From an uncultured Rhodospirillales bacterium (lineage in GTDB: Bacteria; Pseudomonadota; Alphaproteobacteria; Azospirillales; Azospirillaceae): a stretch of 32,207 bases of DNA. Both the position numbers and the translations under genes were made by a program. Under the pieces are notes generated by a model. It was not told where the DNA came from, did not search any database, and saw only the letters and a list, made by a program, of their open reading frames with translations. The stretch spans positions 1 to 32,207 of the forward strand of contig CAIZDL010000043.1 in the NCBI GenBank assembly GCA_903931735.1. Direction: 5' to 3'. This document shows positions 1 to 8,863 of the stretch, piece by piece (position 1 is the stretch's first letter; every line of letters starts with the position of its first letter).

Positions 1-1197
1 GGCGGGGCCGCGATGGCCGGACCGCCGATCGTGATTGGGGCGGCGGCGCCTCATCGCGATGGCCGGGAGGCGATGGATTGCGGGATCTGCCACCAAATGT
101 TGCCGCGCGCCGGGCAGGCTCCACGTCCGGCTGCAACCGTGGCGCGTGGTTTGACTGCGGCGGCGCCGGGCGGGGCAATGATGGCCGGACCGCCGATCAC
201 GATTGGTGCGCCAGCGCCGCACCGTGATGGCCGAGAGGCGATGGATTGCGGGATCTGCCACCAAATGTTGCCGCGCACCGGGCAGGCTCCGCGTCCGGCT
301 GCAACCATGGCGCGCGGCGTGACTGCGGCGGTGCCGGGCATGGCGCCACCGCCGATTGTGGCCGGCACGCCGCCTCCCCACCGCGATGGCCGGGAGACGA
401 TGGATTGCGCGATGTGCCACAAGTTTATTCCGGCCGGCGGGGCGGCGACGGCGGCTCCGGTGGCGCAAACCGGGGCGGGCGGCGGGCTTCAGTTCGCGCG
501 GCCCCCGGCGACATTTGCGCTGAATGTCGCGGCGGCGGTTCCGGGCGGCGCGCCTCCGGGGGGGATTTTGATTTTGGGCGCGAGCACCTTGCCGGTTACC
601 GCCGCTTTGGCCGCGCAAACCGGGCAGACTGAGGGTAAGGGGGTGTTTGTCGCCCAGGTGGTTCCGGGGTCGCCAGCGGCGGTTGCGGGGCTTGAGGCGG
701 GGATGGTCATCGAGAAGGTGGATGGCCGCCGGTTGCGCGCGCCCCGCGATTTGGTCTCGGTGATCGAGGCTGCGAAACCGGGAGATCGGCTGCGGTTGGC
801 GGTGACCGGGGATAAGGGGCGCCGGGAATTGCAACTTATCGTTTCGGTGCTGCCGGTGGCGGCGCCGGGCGCGACTGGCGCTGCGGGCGGCGTCGCCCCC
901 AAAGTGCCGACCGAGTTTAATTGGCGCGGTATGGAGATTGAGACGTTCGCATCGGTGGGGACCCCGGGCAACGGCGGCGGCGCGCAGCTTAAGGGTGCGG
1001 TGATTGCCGAGGTGGTTCCGGGCTCGCCTGCCCAGCGGGCCGGGTTGCAGGCGAATGATATTATCGTGGAGGTTGCCGGGCAGTCGGCGGCAACTGCCGC
1101 GCTGCTCAACCATGCAGTGCAGGCGGTCACAGGTAAGCGCGAAATTATGATGCGAATGGCGCGCAGTAATCGTGAGTTTTTCGTCGTTCTGCCGTGA
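1..1197 (+). CDS. mamE: MamE, C-terminal part (magnetochrome repeats plus two PDZ domains), 5' truncated by window
   Basis: The reading frame is open from base 1 and has no supported start here, so this is the 3' part of a longer gene. From the ATG at 13, three magnetochrome units follow each other, each with a PPI...PHRDGRE stretch and a CxxCH haem motif (C23/C26/H27, C79/C82/H83, C132/C135/H136). Two PDZ domains then follow (about residues 185-285 and 300-394, each with a VVPGSPA...AGL core). In Magnetospirillum, MamE is a membrane HtrA-like protease with this same order after the protease domain, and mamJ and mamK follow it as they do here. MamE acts in the magnetosome membrane, where it sorts proteins and controls crystal maturation; its haems bind through CxxCH. 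MamP also has PDZ and magnetochrome domains, but it has one PDZ placed before the haem motifs, which does not fit. The protease domain lies outside the window and cannot be judged. Confidence 0.9.
   Translation, partial: GGAAMAGPPIVIGAAAPHRDGREAMDCGICHQMLPRAGQAPRPAATVARGLTAAAPGGAMMAGPPITIGAPAPHRDGREAMDCGICHQMLPRTGQAPRPAATMARGVTAAVPGMAPPPIVAGTPPPHRDGRETMDCAMCHKFIPAGGAATAAPVAQTGAGGGLQFARPPATFALNVAAAVPGGAPPGGILILGASTLPVTAALAAQTGQTEGKGVFVAQVVPGSPAAVAGLEAGMVIEKVDGRRLRAPRDLVSVIEAAKPGDRLRLAVTGDKGRRELQLIVSVLPVAAPGATGAAGGVAPKVPTEFNWRGMEIETFASVGTPGNGGGAQLKGAVIAEVVPGSPAQRAGLQANDIIVEVAGQSAATAALLNHAVQAVTGKREIMMRMARSNREFFVVLP
13..339 (+). repeat. Tandem duplication of magnetochrome-encoding unit in mamE
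   Basis: Two near-identical in-frame units lie head to tail: 13-180 (168 bp) and 181-339 (159 bp). Both begin ATGGCCGGACCGCCGATC and carry the same CGIC-H haem motif and linker. A third, more diverged unit starts at 340 and keeps only the haem-motif core. The four codons before base 13 (Gly-Gly-Ala-Ala) resemble the Pro-Gly-Gly-Ala linker before the second unit, which suggests that another unit may lie upstream. Confidence 0.9.
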
Positions 1198-1305
1198 CCA
1201 AGGGATGGCCGGCATTCCGGGCGCGGAGCGATTTTGGCGTGAAGGCGTGCGGGGCGGTCGGGGACGGATGGGTCGCCATACAATTCGGTCTAGGCGGGGG
1301 ACAGG

Positions 1306-3051
1306 ATGCGTCTAAAGCGCGTTAATACGAAAGCGGGCGCAACGAAAGCGCGCGCGAGCGCTGCCGCCATTGATGCGCTGGTGGCTGCCGTGGTCCCAGC
1401 CGGTCCCGCGACCGGCGCTGTCGAGTCGGCGACGCCGGATGGTGAGACTGCGGCTGAGGCGGCGGTGGTCGTCGCTGTGGTTGGGCTTGACGACGCGGGG
1501 GGTGTGCCGGCCCCCGAGGCGGTGGTGGTGGACGTTTTTCCCGAAGCGGCGGGTGTTGCCGCCGGGCCTGAAGCGGCCCCCGAGGCGGTGGTCCCGGTGC
1601 GTGAGGTGGAGCTGGAGGTGGTGTTCGCGAGCCGGCTGGTTGGGCAGACGGTGCGGATTCGGGATAATCTGCGGGATCGTCCCGAGGAGGATTGGGCGGC
1701 GCTGATTGCAACGTCTGCGTGGGTTCAGGCGAGCGAGCCGGGGCGGGCCGAGGCCGGGCCAGCACCGGAGTCGGGGATTAACCCTTATCGCGCGACAACG
1801 AAGGCGCGACGAATTTCAAATTGCGATATAGAAAGCTTGTGTGCGTTACCTGCGGTAGTGGCGGATGATGATCGGCTGAGCCAAGTTGCGCTGGTGGCGA
1901 GCCCGGTGCAGGGTTCGGTTCGGATGCCCGGGCCACTGCGATCGGAGGTGGTGGCCACGATGTCGGTCACGATCATGCCGGCTTCCGGGCAAGCTTCCGA
2001 GCCGGAAGCCGCCGATGAAACCGAGGTTGCAACGACCTTCGATCGGTGGGCCGAAGGTGAGGGGGCATGGCACCAAGACCAGGATGCCGATGGTGAGCCG
2101 ACCGACCAAGCTCCGGCCTCCGATGCCCTGGCGCTGGTCTTGGAGACTGCGGATGACGCGGTGGAAAGTTGCGCTGCAATGTTTGCCAGCGAGCTGATTG
2201 CCGCCGTTTCTTTGGAATTAAATCCGCCGGCCGAGCCTCACTGTTCTGTGGCCGATCTCGTTTCGGCCGCTGCGGCCGTTTCGCTGGAGTTGAACCCGCT
2301 GGCTGAGCTGGCCGAGCCGGTTGATCCACCGCCGGCGTCAGTATCGCCCGTTGTGTCGACGCCTGCGCCTATGCCGCCGGTTGAGCCACCTCCGGCGTCA
2401 GTATCGCCCGTTGTGTCGACGGCTGCGCCTATGCCGCCGGTTGAGTCACCTCCGGCGCCAGTACCGCCCGTTGTGTCGACGCCTGCCCCGTCGCCGGCTG
2501 AGCCACCAGTTCTACTGCCGGGGGGTGTTCAAGAGTCGCCGCAGGCTCCGGTCGTCGTTCCAGAAATGGTTGCTGTTCCCTCTCAGGTTGCGTTGCCCCC
2601 TTTGCCTGCGGGTTTTCGGCAGGTCCGAACCTTGTTGTTCGATGATGGGCCGCTGTTTTCGGCGCATCCGTTGTTGGTTACGGTGATTATCGAGCCGCTG
2701 CCCCGGTCCGGCGAGTCGCCGCCGCCGCAAGTGGCCTTGTCGGTCGAGCCTCCGCCGCCCCCCGCGCCGCCGCCTGCGCCGAATCCGCCGATGCCGCCAA
2801 CCCCCGCGCCGAAGCCTGTTCCGCTGGCGTCGGCCAAGCCAAAGCTGGCCGAGCCGAGCCGGGTCACGCCGGTGGCTCCGGTGTCGTTGGTGGGCGGCGT
2901 GGTGGCGTTTGGGGCCTCGATCGGTCGGGCGCTGGGCCTGGGCGCCCCGCCACGCGGTCTGGTGGCGGGAGTGCAGAAAAAGTCGGCGGTTGCGCACGGG
3001 GGAGGCGGAAAAGTTCGGCCTTCGGGTGTACAAGGAAGACCTGGGCGGTGA
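1306..3051 (+). CDS. mamJ: MamJ-like Pro/Ala/Glu-rich protein
   Basis: This encodes a 581-aa low-complexity protein rich in Ala, Val, Pro and Glu. It sits exactly between mamE and mamK, where mamJ lies in Magnetospirillum. MamJ is an acidic, repetitive, poorly conserved protein that tethers magnetosomes to the MamK filament. The residues here include an acidic, Ala-rich N-terminal half, a Pro-rich repeat block at about 341-395, a second Pro-rich tract at about 465-520, and a C-terminal hydrophobic Gly/Ala stretch (VSLVGGVVAFGASIGRALGLG region, about 528-548) with a basic tail. The ATG at 1306 follows a GGGGGACAGG ribosome site directly. The name rests on position and composition, not on recognisable sequence identity. 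The protein is longer than the roughly 430-470 aa usual for Magnetospirillum MamJ. Confidence 0.65.
   Translation: MRLKRVNTKAGATKARASAAAIDALVAAVVPAGPATGAVESATPDGETAAEAAVVVAVVGLDDAGGVPAPEAVVVDVFPEAAGVAAGPEAAPEAVVPVREVELEVVFASRLVGQTVRIRDNLRDRPEEDWAALIATSAWVQASEPGRAEAGPAPESGINPYRATTKARRISNCDIESLCALPAVVADDDRLSQVALVASPVQGSVRMPGPLRSEVVATMSVTIMPASGQASEPEAADETEVATTFDRWAEGEGAWHQDQDADGEPTDQAPASDALALVLETADDAVESCAAMFASELIAAVSLELNPPAEPHCSVADLVSAAAAVSLELNPLAELAEPVDPPPASVSPVVSTPAPMPPVEPPPASVSPVVSTAAPMPPVESPPAPVPPVVSTPAPSPAEPPVLLPGGVQESPQAPVVVPEMVAVPSQVALPPLPAGFRQVRTLLFDDGPLFSAHPLLVTVIIEPLPRSGESPPPQVALSVEPPPPPAPPPAPNPPMPPTPAPKPVPLASAKPKLAEPSRVTPVAPVSLVGGVVAFGASIGRALGLGAPPRGLVAGVQKKSAVAHGGGGKVRPSGVQGRPGR
2326..2490 (+). 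repeat. 60-bp tandem repeat in mamJ, 2.75 copies
   Basis: In-frame units at 2326-2385, 2386-2445 and 2446-2490 (partial) encode PPASVSPVVST followed by PAPMPPVE-like segments. The copies differ at only a few bases. A shorter SLELNP repeat precedes them (about 2209-2310). Repeat blocks are typical of MamJ proteins, and copy number would be expected to vary between strains. Confidence 0.9.
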
Positions 3052-3153
3052 CGGGTCAGTAACATCGGTGAGTTTTTTTGGTAAGGAATTCGGCGCGCGT
3101 GGGTTTGAGTAGGTCCCCGTGTCCCGGCAATGATCAAACTGGAGGATTGGTGA

Positions 3154-4209
3154 ATGAGTGACGATAAGCTGCAACAGCAAGGGACCGACAACCAGGTGAT
3201 CGTCGGCATCGACTTGGGGACCTCGCAGACCTCCGTGATTTCGAATCGGGGACTTCGGCGGGTATTTCAGTCGGTGGTCGGTTATCCGAAGGACGTGATT
3301 GGTGTGCGCCTGCTGGGTGCGCCCTTTATTGTTGGCGAAGCCGCATACGAAAAGCGCTCGTTTCTTGAGTTGCGCTATCCGTTACAGGAAGGCGTGATTA
3401 AAGAGGCCAATTCGAAAGACTTGACTGCGGCTCGTGAAGTCCTGAAATACGCAGTTGCCCTCGCTGGTGCCGCTCCGGGCGATGAGATCCGGGCAATTAT
3501 CAGCGTTCCCGCGCGCGCGTCGGCGGGCGACAAGTCGGTGGTTTTGCAGATTGCCGAAGAAATTGTTCACGTTGCCGTTGTGGTTTCTCAGCCGTTCCTG
3601 GTTGCTTACCATTATGGCAAGCTCTACAATTCGTTGGTCATTGATATTGGCGCCGGTACTGTCGATGTTTGTGCGCTCAAGGGCATGATGCCGCCCCCCG
3701 ACGATCAGATCACGCTGAAGAAGGCTGGTAACTACATTGATCAGCGTTTGATGGAAGGTATTCTTGATCGTTACCCCGATGTGCAGATCAATCTGAACAT
3801 CGCGCGCGGCATCAAGGAGGCTCACGCCTTTGTCGGCAAGCCCGCGGCCCCGGTCCAGGTTGAGTTGCGCTCCAACGGCTTGCCGGTGCTGTGCGATATC
3901 ACCGAGGAAATGCGCACGGCGTGCGAAGCGATCGTTCCCGATATTATCGAAGGTGTCGAGGCGTTGTTGAAGCGCTTCCAGCCCGATGATTTGCCAAAAG
4001 TTCTGCAAAATGTGATTGTGGCTGGTTGCGGATGCCGCATTACGGGTATTTCTGATCTGCTGGCTGCCAAGCTGCGCGCATATGGTGATGTCAAGATCGC
4101 GTTGGCCCGTGACCCCGAATTCGATGCCGCTTCTGGTGCATTGCTGATGGGGCAAGAGCTGCCGCCCAAGTTCTGGGATCAGATTGGTGAGATGATCGGC
4201 GAGAGCTGA
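3154..4209 (+). CDS. mamK: MamK, actin-like magnetosome filament protein
   Basis: This encodes a 351-aa actin/MreB-superfamily ATPase that polymerises into the cytoplasmic filament organising the magnetosome chain. Visible motifs are phosphate-1 GIDLGTS (about 18-24), SVVGYPKDVIG (about 40-50) and SVPARAS (about 117-123), phosphate-2 DIGAGTVD (164-171) and the adenosine-site VAGCGCRITG (about 288-297). Compared from memory with Magnetospirillum MamK, the whole chain aligns. D164 matches the catalytic D161, but the position of the catalytic E143 (motif SEPF) is Gln here (Q146 in SQPF, codon CAG at 3589-3597). The ATG follows GGAGG with good spacing (3141-3145). The gene lies between the mamJ-like gene and mamL. 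MamK-specific sequence separates it clearly from MreB. Confidence 0.95.
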   Translation: MSDDKLQQQGTDNQVIVGIDLGTSQTSVISNRGLRRVFQSVVGYPKDVIGVRLLGAPFIVGEAAYEKRSFLELRYPLQEGVIKEANSKDLTAAREVLKYAVALAGAAPGDEIRAIISVPARASAGDKSVVLQIAEEIVHVAVVVSQPFLVAYHYGKLYNSLVIDIGAGTVDVCALKGMMPPPDDQITLKKAGNYIDQRLMEGILDRYPDVQINLNIARGIKEAHAFVGKPAAPVQVELRSNGLPVLCDITEEMRTACEAIVPDIIEGVEALLKRFQPDDLPKVLQNVIVAGCGCRITGISDLLAAKLRAYGDVKIALARDPEFDAASGALLMGQELPPKFWDQIGEMIGES

Positions 4210-4253
4210 GGAGAGTTGCGGCAATAATGCCGAAGCAAAGCTTGATTATTACC

Positions 4254-4288
4254 GGCAGGGAGGGGGATCTATACTCCCCCTCTTTGCC
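4254..4288 (+). promoter_or_regulatory. Strong hairpin between mamK and mamL
   Basis: A 13-bp stem (4254-4266 paired with 4276-4288, including two G:U pairs) closes a 9-nt loop. Its core is GAGGGGG / CCCCCTC. No T-run follows, so it is not a standard intrinsic terminator. It lies in the 159-nt mamK-mamL gap inside the operon. It could act in mRNA processing, in stability, or as a weak attenuator that changes the mamK to mamL ratio; which of these applies is inference. Confidence 0.55.
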
Positions 4289-4368
4289 GTGATATCGGGC
4301 CGCTTCGGAGCTGTTTGGTGTCGATGGTTGTTTGAACCAAGACGAGTGAGAGGGGGCGGGGCCAGCCG

Positions 4369-4605
4369 ATGCGACGCGTCCTGGTGATTATAGGGTTGAT
4401 GTTGGCGCTGTTGTTCGTGTCGCAGAACCTCGACGTCGTGGAGATCTCCCTGGTCATCGGGCGGCCGGTTGAGGTGCCGCTGGCGCTGATCATTATTGGA
4501 GCATTTTTGGGCGGTTTCGTTGCGGGGATTGGGGCTGTTTTGGAACGGCGCTTTCGCCGCAACCGGGCCAAGGAAGAAGCCGAGGAAGACGAATTGCAAG
4601 AGTGA
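4369..4605 (+). CDS. mamL: MamL, small magnetosome membrane protein
   Basis: This encodes a 78-aa protein with two hydrophobic segments (about residues 4-24 and 36-55) and a charged tail that is first basic (ERRFRRNRAK) and then acidic (EEAEEDELQE). This is the LapA-like architecture of MamL, which is required for magnetosome membrane invagination in Magnetospirillum. The basic patch in the tail has been proposed to bend the inner membrane. The position between mamK and mamM matches the conserved operon order. A purine-rich AGGGGGCGGGG stretch at 4351-4361 serves as ribosome site for the ATG at 4369. MamL proteins are usually about 75-125 aa, so this one is full length. Confidence 0.9.
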   Translation: MRRVLVIIGLMLALLFVSQNLDVVEISLVIGRPVEVPLALIIIGAFLGGFVAGIGAVLERRFRRNRAKEEAEEDELQE

Positions 4606-4668
4606 GCCCGCCAGGGCCGGTGTCGATAACTATAGGGTTGAACACGAAAGGTATGACTGGTCAGGCCG

Positions 4669-5634
4669 ATGAGATTCAGGAACTGCGTCAGGTGCTCAAA
4701 ATACATTGGCTGGGTTGGCCTGGCGGCGAACTTTGCGCTGATGTTGATGAACTTGTTCATCGGCTTGGTTGCCGGCTCTCAGGCGCTGGTTGTCGGCTCG
4801 ATGTATTCTTTAAAAGATATGGCGACCTCGGTGTTTGTCATCGTTGGCGTGACCGTCGGCCGCAAGCCGCTTGATCGAGAGCACCCTTACGGACATGGCA
4901 AGATCGAATTCTTGATGTCATTGGTGTTCGGCATTGTTTTGTTATTCCTTGCTTCATTTTTACTTTATCACGCCATTGATACCCTGCTCCACGCCGAACG
5001 GAACGTGGCCCCCCGGTTGGTCGCGGTTTGGGCGGCGTTTGTCTCGGTGCTGGCCTATACTTATACCTTTTACTACGCAAGTTGCGTGGCGACCGAGAGT
5101 AATAGCCCGATTGTGCGCATGATGGCCCGCCATCACCACTCCGACGCGGTGGCTGCCGGGGTTGCCGGCCTGGGAATCATCGGGGCACACCTTTTTGATC
5201 TGCCCTGGGTTGATACCGTGGTCGCGTTTTTTGAAGCGCTGGACCTGACCTTGCTCGGGATCAAGGTGTTTTGGGACTCGTGTAAGGGGCTGCTCGATCG
5301 CAGCCTCGACCCCGGAATGCGCACCATGATCCGCAAGATCGCCGAGGATACCGAGGGCGTCAAAGAGGTTAAGGCCTTGAAAACGCGCCTGACCGGGCAT
5401 CAAATCTGGTCGGACCTGATTATTGGCGTCGATGCCGAGTTGACCGTGGAAGAAGCCCATGTGATTTGCGAAAGAGTGCGGGCGCGAATCGTGGAAAGGT
5501 TGCGCCATGTTGGCTCACTGAGCGTGGATGCGGAAATTTGCGAGCGTGAAATCGAAAAAAATCGCGACTTGAGCGCGCGTTGGCGGGCGGCAAATCTCGC
5601 AGTTAGCGAAACCGGGGCGGTGGTGAAGTCATGA
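4669..5634 (+). CDS. mamM: MamM, magnetosome CDF-family iron transporter
   Basis: This encodes a 321-aa cation diffusion facilitator that moves iron into the magnetosome and, in Magnetospirillum, stabilises MamB. Residue numbering matches Magnetospirillum MamM exactly. The transmembrane metal site Y46/D50 (MYSLKD) and H155/D159 (HHHSD) is present, as are the CDF HPYGHGK loop (72-78) and the cytoplasmic-domain residues W247, D249, H264 and E289. The reported cytoplasmic ligand H285 is Ser here. The start at 4669 gives the MR.xxCxxCSKxIGWVGL opening seen in other MamM proteins; its ribosome site is weak. The 3' end overlaps mamO by ATGA, so translation of the two is probably coupled. There is no mamN between them. 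The partner MamB is not in the window. Confidence 0.95.
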   Translation: MRFRNCVRCSKYIGWVGLAANFALMLMNLFIGLVAGSQALVVGSMYSLKDMATSVFVIVGVTVGRKPLDREHPYGHGKIEFLMSLVFGIVLLFLASFLLYHAIDTLLHAERNVAPRLVAVWAAFVSVLAYTYTFYYASCVATESNSPIVRMMARHHHSDAVAAGVAGLGIIGAHLFDLPWVDTVVAFFEALDLTLLGIKVFWDSCKGLLDRSLDPGMRTMIRKIAEDTEGVKEVKALKTRLTGHQIWSDLIIGVDAELTVEEAHVICERVRARIVERLRHVGSLSVDAEICEREIEKNRDLSARWRAANLAVSETGAVVKS

Positions 5635-7655
5635 AGGAGCCGATCGGAAGAGAGGCGGATAACGCGATTATGTTCTGCACGCGGCCGTGGCGCGTGATGG
5701 GCATCGCGGTGATGGCCCTGGTCGGCCTGACGCTGATTTGGGGCATGATCATCCTCACCACGTATCGGACCGATGATCGGTTTGGCACCGACCAAACATT
5801 GTCCGTTACAGAATTTATGAGCCGTAATATCGCATTGCCCGGCTCGATCAGTTTGCCCGATGCCGTTGCGCCTGCGGTGGTGGCGGTGGATGGCGGCAAG
5901 ATAAACGGCGGTGTGGTTGCTTCGGGCGCCATTGTCGGGGCAAATGGTTATGTTTTAACCACCCTGCACTCGATTGAAGGCTTGCCCGAGATTACGATCC
6001 ATGTGCGCACAAAGGCTGGTTTACGAAGTTTTACTGCTCAGTTGGTCAAAAAGGCGCCGAGCCATGATCTGGCGTTGCTGAAGATCCAGTCGCCCGGTAG
6101 CTTCCTTTACTTGTCACTTGCCGATACCACTGGGGGCATGGGCGGCTCGGTGTTTGCCTTTGGCCTGGGGTCTCGGGGGGATCTGGTCGTGCGGCAGGGC
6201 GGTATTTCGCCGCAACCGGTCCCGTTGACGGTCGAGGGCTTACAAATTTCCCATTTGCGCCTGACCGATGCGGTCTATTCATGGGAGCAAAACGGTGGGC
6301 CGGTGATCAATAGCGATGGGGCTGTGGTCGGCGTAACCATCGCGGTTCGCGATGCCGATGGCACGGTGCGCGGATATGTTGTGCCAGCCGATGTGATTAT
6401 TTCTCATTTTCGGGATGTGCTGAACTTTAAGACCATAGCCCCCTCGCCGGTTGCAGCAGCGCCACCCGTGTCGGTGGCGATGGCCGGGGCGCGCGGCCCG
6501 CAAATGATCGAAGCGGCCATGGCGCCTCCCGTGTTTGGCGGTGCTGGGGCTTCGGGCTTGATGGGGGCGGGGCCCTTGACCGGCGGGCCGGTACTGAATG
6601 GTGCGGCGAACTGGTGGGTTCGCGCCGCCAATCAGGTGGGGGCGGTTCCGGCCCAAGCGGTGGGGCTGGCCGGTGCGCCCGCCAATACGAATGTCGGCGG
6701 GCAGGGGCAAGGTGTCGTGGCGCCGATGGATGTCGAGCATTTGTTGGGGTTGCGTATTGCTGGGTTCTCGGTGGAGGATTTAATCGGGCTGACCGCACTG
6801 GCGCTGGTCAAAGGCGTCATCGGCGGCATGATGACCATGGGTGGCGGCGTATTTCTTGTTGCCGGCATGATGATGTTCTTTGGCTATGGGCTGTTTTTAA
6901 TCCGGCCAGTCGCCTATTTGACCAATATCTTCGTTTATAGCGCCTCGTCGCTGCGCCACCACCGCAACGGGTTGGTGATGTGGGATGAGGTCAAATCGCT
7001 GGCCCCTTGGGCGGTGATTGGCGTGGTTGTGGGGTATTTTGTCGGCAACGCGATCAGCGATCGGATCATCGAGATCCTCCTCGGGTTGTTCGCGGTGATG
7101 ATCTCGGTGAAAGCCGCTCATGAAGTGTTGAGTAATCAGGGCGACGAGATCCTGTTGACCAGGAACAACGACGCCACTCGCACCGATAGTGACGATGATG
7201 ATGCTGACAAAACCGCTAGCGCAGCCGATCTTTCCGACGACGACGTTGCGGCGGCGCCTGCCGCATTTAGTCTTAAGTCATGGACCAAGCCCGCTTTGCT
7301 TGCTTTGCCTATGGGCGTGATCAGCGGTATTCTTGGCATTACCGGCGGCGTGATCGAAGTGCCGTTGCAGCACTATGTCGGCAAGATCCCCCTGAAAAAC
7401 GCCATTGCCAACAGCGCGGTGCTGGTGTTCTGCGCCTCGCTGACCGGCACCGTGCTCTCGTTCGTCCACGGCACCGCCACCGGCATCATCGATTGGCGCA
7501 CCCCGCTGACCCTCGCCGCAATCCTGATCCCCGCCTCTTTCGCCGGCGGCATCGCCGGCGCCCACCTCACCAAACTAGCCCCCAAACCCGCCCTGAAAGC
7601 CGTCTTCTCCCTCTTGATGATGGCCGTGGCAATCCGGATGTTTATTGGCAACTAA
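5631..7655 (+). CDS. mamO: MamO, degenerate trypsin-like protease fused to TauE/SafE-like membrane domain
   Basis: This encodes a 674-aa protein with an N-terminal membrane anchor (about 22-43), a trypsin/HtrA-like domain (about 75-265), a Gly/Ala-rich linker (about 270-375) and a multi-pass TauE/SafE-type domain (about 385-674). The triad positions read H113 (LHSIEG), D146 (SHDLALL) and N221 (QNGGP, where proteases have SGGP), so the nucleophile is lost. AMB-1 MamO likewise lacks it, with Thr there. H145 and H259 fall at the places of the two His residues that bind metal in AMB-1 MamO (H148 and H263), so the metal-binding role in magnetite nucleation looks preserved. An acidic insert (TDSDDDDADK, about 516-525) sits in the loop between the two TauE halves. 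This is the last magnetosome gene in the window. It overlaps mamM by 4 nt. Confidence 0.93.
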   Translation: MKEPIGREADNAIMFCTRPWRVMGIAVMALVGLTLIWGMIILTTYRTDDRFGTDQTLSVTEFMSRNIALPGSISLPDAVAPAVVAVDGGKINGGVVASGAIVGANGYVLTTLHSIEGLPEITIHVRTKAGLRSFTAQLVKKAPSHDLALLKIQSPGSFLYLSLADTTGGMGGSVFAFGLGSRGDLVVRQGGISPQPVPLTVEGLQISHLRLTDAVYSWEQNGGPVINSDGAVVGVTIAVRDADGTVRGYVVPADVIISHFRDVLNFKTIAPSPVAAAPPVSVAMAGARGPQMIEAAMAPPVFGGAGASGLMGAGPLTGGPVLNGAANWWVRAANQVGAVPAQAVGLAGAPANTNVGGQGQGVVAPMDVEHLLGLRIAGFSVEDLIGLTALALVKGVIGGMMTMGGGVFLVAGMMMFFGYGLFLIRPVAYLTNIFVYSASSLRHHRNGLVMWDEVKSLAPWAVIGVVVGYFVGNAISDRIIEILLGLFAVMISVKAAHEVLSNQGDEILLTRNNDATRTDSDDDDADKTASAADLSDDDVAAAPAAFSLKSWTKPALLALPMGVISGILGITGGVIEVPLQHYVGKIPLKNAIANSAVLVFCASLTGTVLSFVHGTATGIIDWRTPLTLAAILIPASFAGGIAGAHLTKLAPKPALKAVFSLLMMAVAIRMFIGN

Positions 7656-7872
7656 GGGGGGGCCGCTATGACATTCATGGCGGTGGCCGTGCGGGCCCGT
7701 TGGGAGTCCGTTGACGAAAGGCCCGGCAAGGTATAGCTTTATATCAGTTGTCGTGCTTTTCGCCGGGGTTGGGTTGGGCTGGAGGTCTCGGCCGGCGCCT
7801 AGCGGGCAATCGGGATGTTACCTGCTGTGTAGGCAAACACAGAGGCGGAGTTGAGACGAACGGGGGAGCCGG
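7656..7872. other. mamO 3' intergenic region
   Basis: These 217 bp separate the mam block from unrelated genes. No T-tailed terminator follows mamO. A small perfect hairpin, CTGTGT / ACACAG, lies at 7825-7842, just ahead of the next gene. No coding frame with a ribosome site was found, and no insertion-sequence ends or tRNA gene are visible at this junction. Confidence 0.5.
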
Positions 7873-8523
7873 ATGATCATCGGGTCGCTCTCCACACGAG
7901 CAATACCTCGTCAGGACGCTGGGGGCGCGAGTAGCCCGGTGTCCGATGGGGGGGCAGTGTCTGCGACCACCCGGACGAATAGCCCTGCCGCGCCGAGTGG
8001 CGGCGGCAGTGCGAGTGGGGCTGTGAGCTTCGTTAGCCCGTTTTCCCGTTATGATTACTCCAGCCGGCTGGAAATTTTGCAGTTTCGCGATTCCCAAACC
8101 GGCAAGGTCAGTTTGCAAATTCCCTCCGAGCGGATTGTGGATGCTTATCGGCGGGGCACCATTATTAGTGCCAAACCGTTGGCGACCCATGAGGCCGCGC
8201 CTCAACCGGCAGCGCAGCAAGCCCCGGTGCCCGCGAGTCGGCAGGCTGGGGCGGCAGAGGCCGGGCGGCCTGTTGGGTCGGTCGGCGAGGCTTCCGCTGC
8301 TAAGGCAACCGATGGGGCGCCGGCCGTAGCTCCGGCCGGCGTCGCTGCCACCTCAACGCCCGCTCCAGAGCCGGTACAGGCCGCGCCCTCGCCGCCCTCG
8401 CCGGCCGTTGCCGCCCTCGCGGGTATTGCGGTCGCGGCCCCGGTTCAGGCGCCGGCCCCTGCTCCGGCGCCGGTGACTGAAGCAAAGCCGGTTGGCGGTT
8501 CCGGGAGCGTTGGCGCGGTTTAG
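7873..8523 (+). CDS. Ala/Pro-rich protein with FlaG-like segment
   Basis: This encodes a 216-aa protein that is mostly low-complexity Ala, Pro, Ser and Gly. A single ordered stretch at about residues 58-95 reads YDYSSRLEILQFRDSQTGK, followed by QIPSERIVDAYRRG. It resembles the short FlaG-type pattern (hydrophobic strand, D-x-x-T-G, then QIP). Short alphaproteobacterial proteins of this kind are often annotated as hypothetical or flagellar FlaG-like. The ATG at 7873 follows CGGGGGAGCC. The TAG stop lies inside the repeat element that follows. Function is unknown. Its position directly after mamO makes a magnetosome link possible, but nothing in the sequence shows one. Confidence 0.55.
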   Translation: MIIGSLSTRAIPRQDAGGASSPVSDGGAVSATTRTNSPAAPSGGGSASGAVSFVSPFSRYDYSSRLEILQFRDSQTGKVSLQIPSERIVDAYRRGTIISAKPLATHEAAPQPAAQQAPVPASRQAGAAEAGRPVGSVGEASAAKATDGAPAVAPAGVAATSTPAPEPVQAAPSPPSPAVAALAGIAVAAPVQAPAPAPAPVTEAKPVGGSGSVGAV

Positions 8524-8620
8524 AGCACGATGCGATCAAGCAGAACCGCCTCATGCTCTAACTTTTGTTTTTAGAGCGGATCAACCTACGGGCGGATTCC
8601 ATCCTTCGTGACCAGCTCTA
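8521..8620. repeat. Double-hairpin intergenic repeat (alphaproteobacterial type)
   Basis: Two consecutive imperfect hairpins are bounded by TAGAGCA / TGCTCTA (8521-8527 with 8554-8560) and TAGAGC / GCTCTA (8572-8577 with 8615-8620), joined by a T-rich spacer. The pattern TAGAGCA(C/T)GATGCGAT...TGCTCTAAC...TTTAGAGCG is, from memory, a dispersed intergenic palindrome common in alphaproteobacteria. It includes the stop codon of the preceding gene and may also serve as a transcript 3' end. Confidence 0.65.
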
Positions 8621-8739
8621 GTGTTCCGACTCCGACGGACCGTTCCGTCTCGTCGGCCCGGAACCCTAGCTTTTTCTATCTGTTGTGTTGTTCCCGAGAC
8701 ACGATCATTGGGAATGAAGCGTCTCGGTCACAACACTAG
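8618..8739. repeat. Intergenic repeat element, copy A
   Basis: The element is bounded by CTAGTGTT (8618-8625) and AACACTAG (8732-8739), a perfect inverted repeat. Internally, CCGAGAC (8694-8700) pairs with GTCTCGG (8721-8727). Bases 8621-8648 match 16883-16910 with one mismatch in 28. The element directly abuts the double-hairpin repeat on its left. The remaining gene-free sequence up to 8863 shows no further structure or coding frame. Confidence 0.65.
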
Positions 8740-8863
8740 GCGGGGCGCCGGGTGCTTGGGGGCACAGTTTGCCAGGCGATTGCTTGCGGGCCGTATAACC
8801 GTCGACAAGTGCCGTTGATCGGGGCATACAGCGTGGGGAACCCAGGCTGGACGTGGTGGTGTT

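Follow-up and report, generated by a model that had tools for sequence, protein, structure and literature searches.

The mamAB operon of magnetotactic bacteria is treated as a compact unit spread by horizontal transfer and is reportedly sufficient for magnetite formation in a model strain. The present analysis concerns a contig (CAIZDL010000043.1, here C43) of an uncultured Rhodospirillales bacterium of the Azospirillaceae, on which a run of mam genes starting with mamE ends after mamO. This whole stretch of 32,207 bp is the complete contig and is referred to as the window; it belongs to a draft genome of 3,481,197 bp in 291 contigs, listed as 100% complete and 0.98% contaminated. A text search of the literature for such divided gene strings gave a single match, the report on Rhodovastum atsumiense G2-11, where mamH1IEKLMOH2 and feoAmBm-mamPAQRBST are described as separate operon-like clusters within one 27.5-kb region (PMC9938234). 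The break between mamO and mamP is therefore not new in itself. According to the same report, the clusters of G2-11 were derived from a magnetotactic bacterium related to the Azospirillaceae (PMC9938234). Azospirillaceae magnetotactic bacteria and related lake metagenome-assembled genomes (MAGs) with magnetosome clusters have been published (PMC11773610). CCP-1, CCP2-SC-5, CCP5-WCLP8 and the related lake MAGs are probably of the same or a near family as the genome studied here (PMC11773610; PMC9938234), which, judging by its relatives, would belong with them.

In this genome, the mamAB operon is very probably divided physically between mamO and mamP into two single-copy blocks, as far as the genes of a draft assembly can tell. 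The first block would comprise mamE-J-K-L-M-O, probably after mamI, and would lie upstream of a conserved unit of one gene with lolC and lolD, with mamH now beside feoB. The second block, mamP-A-Q-R-B-S-T, would lie between ribF and a quinone oxidoreductase gene, and mamX-mamZ would form a further block. The order mamE-J-K-L-M-O given for the window in the initial annotation was correct, mamE, mamK, mamM and mamO being recognised by NCBIfam profiles and mamL by its LapA domain and a profile built from related loci; the order mamE-K-L-M-O is that of the canonical continuous operon. Profile searches of the 24.5 kb of C43 beyond mamO revealed no further mam genes. A genome search for the genes of the second half, suggested by the same annotation, located mamP, mamA, mamQ, mamR, mamB, mamS and mamT on contig C153 (19,722 bp; locus L022), intact and in canonical order. 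Genome-wide, the MamK profile matched in one place, MamM in one (C43) and MamB-type proteins in two, both on C153 and over cut-off. The magnetochrome domain genes are mamE (C43), mamX (C65), mamP and mamT (both C153), one each. The MamH profile recognised only mamH of contig C99 and mamZ of C65, with no copy of mamH after mamO. The MamK, MamM, MamB and magnetochrome searches thus found no second mamAB copy, mamL, mamO, mamA, mamQ and mamR not having been searched singly across the genome. Since the gene contents of C43 and C153 are complementary and no second copies were found in these searches, the operon appears split, and not truncated or duplicated. The first reading of the window had left open a split or a truncation; the split stood, with the second half intact on C153, and the complete mamAB cluster that it had considered elsewhere was not found in these counts. 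In alphaproteobacterial magnetotactic bacteria, mamAB is described as commonly present in duplicated, inverted or partly lost copies (PMC6819731), but a truncated or partly duplicated operon, with a complete copy elsewhere or the second half lost, is hardly credible here: C153 carries that half, and no second copy was found for any gene searched except for a MamB-type paralogue. Reciprocal loss after duplication is possible as the historical route.

The state found here departs from the usual one. A contig scan with two aligned MamK sequences yielded 132 relatives, and a scan with a single MamK gave none. The best 80 of these 132 loci were examined; 45 lacked a complete mamO on the + strand and in four less than 800 bp followed mamO, which left 31 evaluable loci, seven of them named Alphaproteobacteria outside Magnetococcales (L108, L109, L110, L113, L114, L116 and L122). 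The mamP gene starts 39–264 bp after mamO in 30 of the 31, the remaining locus (L171, SAR324) has mamA directly after mamO, and none stops at mamO; continuity is therefore the usual state. In this genome, mamP does not directly follow mamO. In the continuous mamAB operons of Magnetospirillum and relatives (LM-1, SS-4 and UT-4 among the loci examined), each half has the gene content and order seen in this genome; mamP starts there within a few hundred bp of mamO, whereas here the series is broken at mamO and mamN is missing, since mamM and mamO overlap by 4 bp. In G422, an alphaproteobacterial genome, mamO-P-A-Q-R-B are also found side by side. Among the best 80 of the 132 loci, none is named G2-11 or CCP-1. 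Other breaks around mamO do occur, as can be seen in two Magnetococcales loci: in L180 (PEAO01000070.1, 12917-16269) mamO-P-A are together but inverted after mamM, and in L176 (JADFZU010000005.1) mamQ comes after mamE-K-L-M, neither mamO nor mamP having been detected in between.

The locus has in common with G2-11 the break between mamO and mamP, the intact mamPAQRBST and a large, acidic frame that separates mamE from mamK; mamN is not listed for G2-11 and is missing here as well. The surroundings are different. The mamO gene is followed by mamH2 in G2-11 and by a conserved non-magnetosome flank here, and mamP is preceded there by feoAmBm and here by a divergent mamB/mamV-like gene, with feoB preceding mamH on C99. 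Moreover, mamX and mamZ, absent in G2-11, are present here. The clusters share one 27.5-kb region in G2-11; here they are on four contigs, in which a swapped order could bring the halves close together. To the known break, this genome adds its flanks, a divergent mamB/mamV-like gene next to mamP and a different grouping of the modules. Two chromosomal sites with mam genes are also described for Terasakiella sp. SH-1, where each site has its own copies of one gene set (PMC6819731), while the two contigs considered here carry complementary halves.

The split is supported by the flanks of both blocks, which recur in congeneric genomes without mam genes beside them. Four congeneric genomes (G001-G004, with G002 as the sister genome) were compared, and a tblastn search of 21 proteins from the mam contigs against 12 congeneric stretches recovered the flank gene only and no mam genes. 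Similarity between the window and G002 begins at 7860 with 21 identical bp; before this position, the best alignments to G001, G002 and G003 did not exceed the maximum of 200 shuffles, the score for G003 being above the 95% level. As similarity to G002 resumes only at 7860, the junction is confined to 7656-7859. The interval 7656-8740 proposed previously was too wide. The next gene, which had been regarded as a FlaG-like orphan, belongs to the flank: it has no Pfam match at E ≤ 0.1, and its homologues precede lolC in G001, G002 and G003 (in G004, lolC sits at the contig start). The congeneric genomes also contain more distant paralogues of this gene at other sites. Further upstream the genomes differ, with a chemoreceptor gene in G001, its homologue in G003 and lepA in G002. 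As had been stated, lolC and lolD follow, the former over the NCBIfam cut-off and the latter as best-named match below it, and lolD comes after lolC in G001-G004.

The repeat reported at 8521-8739 is real, but it consists of dispersed pieces and lies on the flank side of the junction, between genes adjacent in congeners, and was rejected as a scar of the break. Full copies of its piece 8619-8739 were located at C65:39918-40035 and C160:89-205, along with a partial copy on C125, and the remaining parts of the composite have relatives on C140, C1 and C65. In the window, the element 8619-8739 is found 860 bp beyond mamO, on the far side of the flank gene. Its copy on C65 (918-1035 of the piece L037) is 92% alike and sits 24 bp after mamZ. 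An enrichment of the element near mam genes was considered and not counted, given one full and one partial copy in a 248-kb sample. A tRNA search of the window found none, in agreement with the earlier remark that no tRNA marks the break.

The division could be only apparent if C43 or C153 were chimeric and mamO were followed by mamP in the cell. The assembly is a short-read draft of 291 contigs, given without read coverage, and the ends of C43 and C99 fall within or beside repeats. Such an artefact is nevertheless improbable, as two independent joins (mamO-flank and ribF/paralogue-mamP) would both need to be wrong, C43 and C153 each carry flanks typical of the genus, and between the dispersed repeat and the junction there is a gene pair that congeners share. 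In the 351.5 kb of the genome compared, each join sequence occurs only once, which makes a chimera there less likely. Alternatively, the two halves may be only a few tens of kb apart, possibly with their order swapped, inside a single magnetosome region interspersed with other genes, as in CCP-1, whose clusters are reported to be interspersed by more than 20 non-magnetosome genes (PMC9938234). The mamT gene is located 2.9 kb from the end of C153, and the contigs can be joined so that some 3 kb and a gap would separate it from mamE or from feoB-mamH. This arrangement is possible but rather unlikely: in G001, ribF, lolC and the oxidoreductase gene are on three contigs, with ribF and lolC at least 94 kb apart, and mamO and mamP are separated in the forward sense by at least 36 kb as the contigs stand. 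Even then, the operon would be split.

The division into two blocks also raises the question of their origin. The halves sit between different flanks, and G2-11 is presented as an example of such clusters moving between families (PMC9938234), which would be compatible with separate acquisition from different donors. Trees were calculated for MamK+M+O and for MamP+A+Q+B, each with 28 rows (26 named loci of the 80, G422 and this genome) and a quick support method. In both trees, this genome was placed in the same nine-row clade with L109, G422, LM-1 and Magnetospirillum, with support of 99 and 97. The halves thus take the same place in both trees and are complementary without overlap in content, and the authors of the G2-11 report likewise saw no different histories for its two parts (PMC9938234), which makes separate donors quite improbable. 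The agreement of the trees would fit one ancestral cluster broken later, although it is not proof. A recent foreign island is unsupported for either half. The GC content (60.3% in the first mam half, 59.6% in the second, 60.6% in the window flank) is near that of the genome sample (59.1%), and in tetranucleotide correlation the two halves rank 10 and 24 among 32 sample windows. The tetranucleotide rank of C99 (4 of 32) and the GC content of mamX-mamZ (53.7%) point the other way, to a foreign origin. A plasmid search with MamK as the query matched nothing.

Magnetochrome genes were found in only this genome and G002 among 82 genomes of the family (82 species, 13 genera; the family-level and order-level sets are identical). 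In G002, one contig carries mamX-mamZ, and another (C134, locus L035) carries the end of mamS together with mamT and mamH; searches of that assembly found neither MamK nor MamB, probably because contigs are missing. On C134 (L035 4824-6818), mamH directly follows mamT, while here it follows feoB. In the stretches compared, mamX-mamZ and mamT have other neighbours here than in G002. Identity to G002 is 83.8% for MamT, 79.4% for MamX, 79.3% for MamZ and 77.8% for MamH, and 92.3% for LolC, 80.7% for RibF and 82.7% for the oxidoreductase. The proportions of nonsynonymous (pN) and synonymous (pS) differences are 0.09-0.13 and 0.53-0.74 in the mam genes, and 0.05-0.13 and 0.57-0.64 in the other genes. 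Owing to these similar values, mamT, mamX, mamZ and mamH look about as constrained as lolC, ribF and the oxidoreductase gene.

One ancestral continuous operon may have been broken by rearrangement, after which separate promoters would drive transcription of the two halves and the proteins of both would still meet on one magnetosome membrane. If they meet there, membrane formation, iron transport and crystal maturation would work with the genes in trans. An operon with internal promoters could be cut with little loss, provided that its second part keeps or gains a promoter, and tolerance of the break would fit the internal promoters known in the mamAB operon of Magnetospirillum. Transcription start sites are reported for M. 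gryphiswaldense MSR-1 within mamH, mamE, mamL, mamO, mamP, mamA and mamQ, and the removal of its primary mamAB promoter is described as having silenced mamH only (PMC8547445). A start site within mamO is also documented for G2-11 (PMC9938234).

Several points weigh against a divided operon with independently expressed halves. Reporter signal from the mamO promoter of MSR-1 reportedly required an optimised ribosome site, and the mamAB promoters are described as mostly unconserved outside Magnetospirillum (PMC8547445). No promoter was recognised upstream of mamP on C153, and a hairpin with a U run is located just before mamP (C153 11749-11786; z -4.8, none of 200 shuffles as stable). This hairpin lies beyond the start of the divergent paralogue and may be a terminator, an attenuator or a relic. 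The assembly is a draft with the mam genes on four contigs and no reads, in which the halves could share a region in swapped order, from the mamT end to the mamE start. The constraint relative to G002 refers to accessory mam genes only, the mam genes of C43 being absent from its assembly. Finally, the end branch of this genome is long in both trees (1.16 and 0.99), and its exact place is unsure. A second hairpin follows mamT on C153 (z -2.5, 4 of 200 shuffles as stable).

Table 1. Coordinates and evidence for the features of the window (C43) and of contigs C153 and C65.
Feature	Contig	Position	Strand	Evidence
mamE, C-terminal 398 aa only	C43	1..1197	+	NCBIfam MamE 289 bits (cut-off 800), profile positions to 659/659
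Direct repeats inside mamE with magnetochrome motifs	C43	1..446 (motifs 22-438)	+	168-bp copies 89% alike
mamJ-like frame	C43	1306..3051	+	position and acidity only; 581 aa, pI 4.5
mamK	C43	3154..4209	+	NCBIfam MamK 462.6 bits, cut-off 400
mamL	C43	4369..4605	+	LapA domain; profile built from related loci, 85 bits
mamM	C43	4669..5634	+	NCBIfam MamM 370.1 bits, cut-off 350
mamO, final mam gene of block	C43	5631..7655	+	NCBIfam MamO 716.2 bits, positions 6-648 of 648, cut-off 800
Junction of mam block and conserved flank; position of mamP in other loci	C43	7656..7859		G002 similarity resumes at 7860
Conserved flank gene	C43	7873..8523	+	homologues directly upstream of lolC in G001, G002, G003
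Composite of dispersed repeat elements	C43	8516..8739		pieces recur elsewhere in genome
lolC (flank)	C43	8864..10111	+	NCBIfam lolCE 481.7 bits, over cut-off; 92% identical to G002
lolD (flank; true start probably later)	C43	10029..10787	+	NCBIfam LolD 251.4 bits, cut-off 307.75, best-named match
ccm-type genes	C153	before MaoC-type gene		recur in G002
MaoC-type gene	C153	before ribF		MaoC-ribF pair recurs in G001-G004, MaoC 85-97% identical
ribF	C153	9680-10720	+	
mamB/mamV-like paralogue	C153	10754-11695	-	MamB 365.1 bits (over cut-off), MamV 364.7 (below)
mamP (true start probably later)	C153	11772-12749	+	312.4 bits, over cut-off
mamA	C153			165.8 bits, below cut-off, best-named match
mamQ	C153			255.8 bits, over cut-off
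mamR	C153			72.3 bits, below cut-off, best-named match
mamB	C153			403.3 bits, over cut-off
mamS	C153			156.9 bits, below cut-off, best-named match
mamT	C153	ends 16838		192.1 bits, below cut-off, best-named match
Quinone oxidoreductase gene	C153	16902-18089	-	
HAMP-domain frame, cut by contig end	C153	after oxidoreductase gene		
mamX	C65			345.3 bits, cut-off 400
mamZ	C65			932.1 bits, over cut-off

The window being an entire contig, its position 1 is a contig end, and the individual features (Table 1) start with an incomplete mamE. The fragment contains three magnetochrome motifs (Pfam MCR x3) and two PDZ domains (Pfam PDZ x2), and the protease part is lost at the contig end. At this edge there are at least three near-identical magnetochrome repeats, with a 107-bp core present in three copies (100, 91 and 74%), and these direct repeats are the likely cause of the assembly break. 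The MamE profile did not recognise the protease part at any end of the other contigs. Its matches on C151, C98 and C102 were rejected as the missing start of mamE, as they do not run off the contig ends and resemble general HtrA proteases. The smallest among 20 sampled contigs has 2,182 bp, and a short piece with the mamE start may therefore have been filtered out. As regards mamH-I, expected before mamE, C43 begins within mamE and mamH stops 83 bp short of the end of C99. On this contig (6,108 bp), which ends inside a dispersed repeat, feoB (574 bits) precedes mamH (483.6 bits, over cut-off); a feoA-like frame was recognised by eye and has no NCBIfam match. The gene initially named mamJ is MamJ-like in position and acidity, but it has no family match in NCBIfam or Pfam. 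The corresponding frame of G2-11 is given as 563 aa long and more acidic, and it is reported to have restored a chain-like arrangement in an MSR-1 mamJ deletion strain (PMC9938234). The second MamB-type transporter, divergent from mamP, obtains equal scores with the MamB and MamV profiles; its identity to MamB is 37%.

Taken together, it may tentatively be proposed that the magnetosome genes of this genus no longer form an island but three to four or more independently placed modules (feoB-mamH, mamE-J-K-L-M-O, mamP-A-Q-R-B-S-T and mamX-mamZ), whose neighbours differ between sister species and whose genes are under selection. If so, the magnetosome operon would be disintegrating here while the organelle is retained. 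Surveys that expect one continuous mamAB, or that rely on short-contig bins, can misjudge magnetotactic genomes; G002, in which only the end of mamS, mamT, mamH, mamX and mamZ were found, without MamK or MamB, looks like such a case. A lineage with the halves of the operon apart would provide a test of whether continuity is needed for organelle assembly or only aids transfer.

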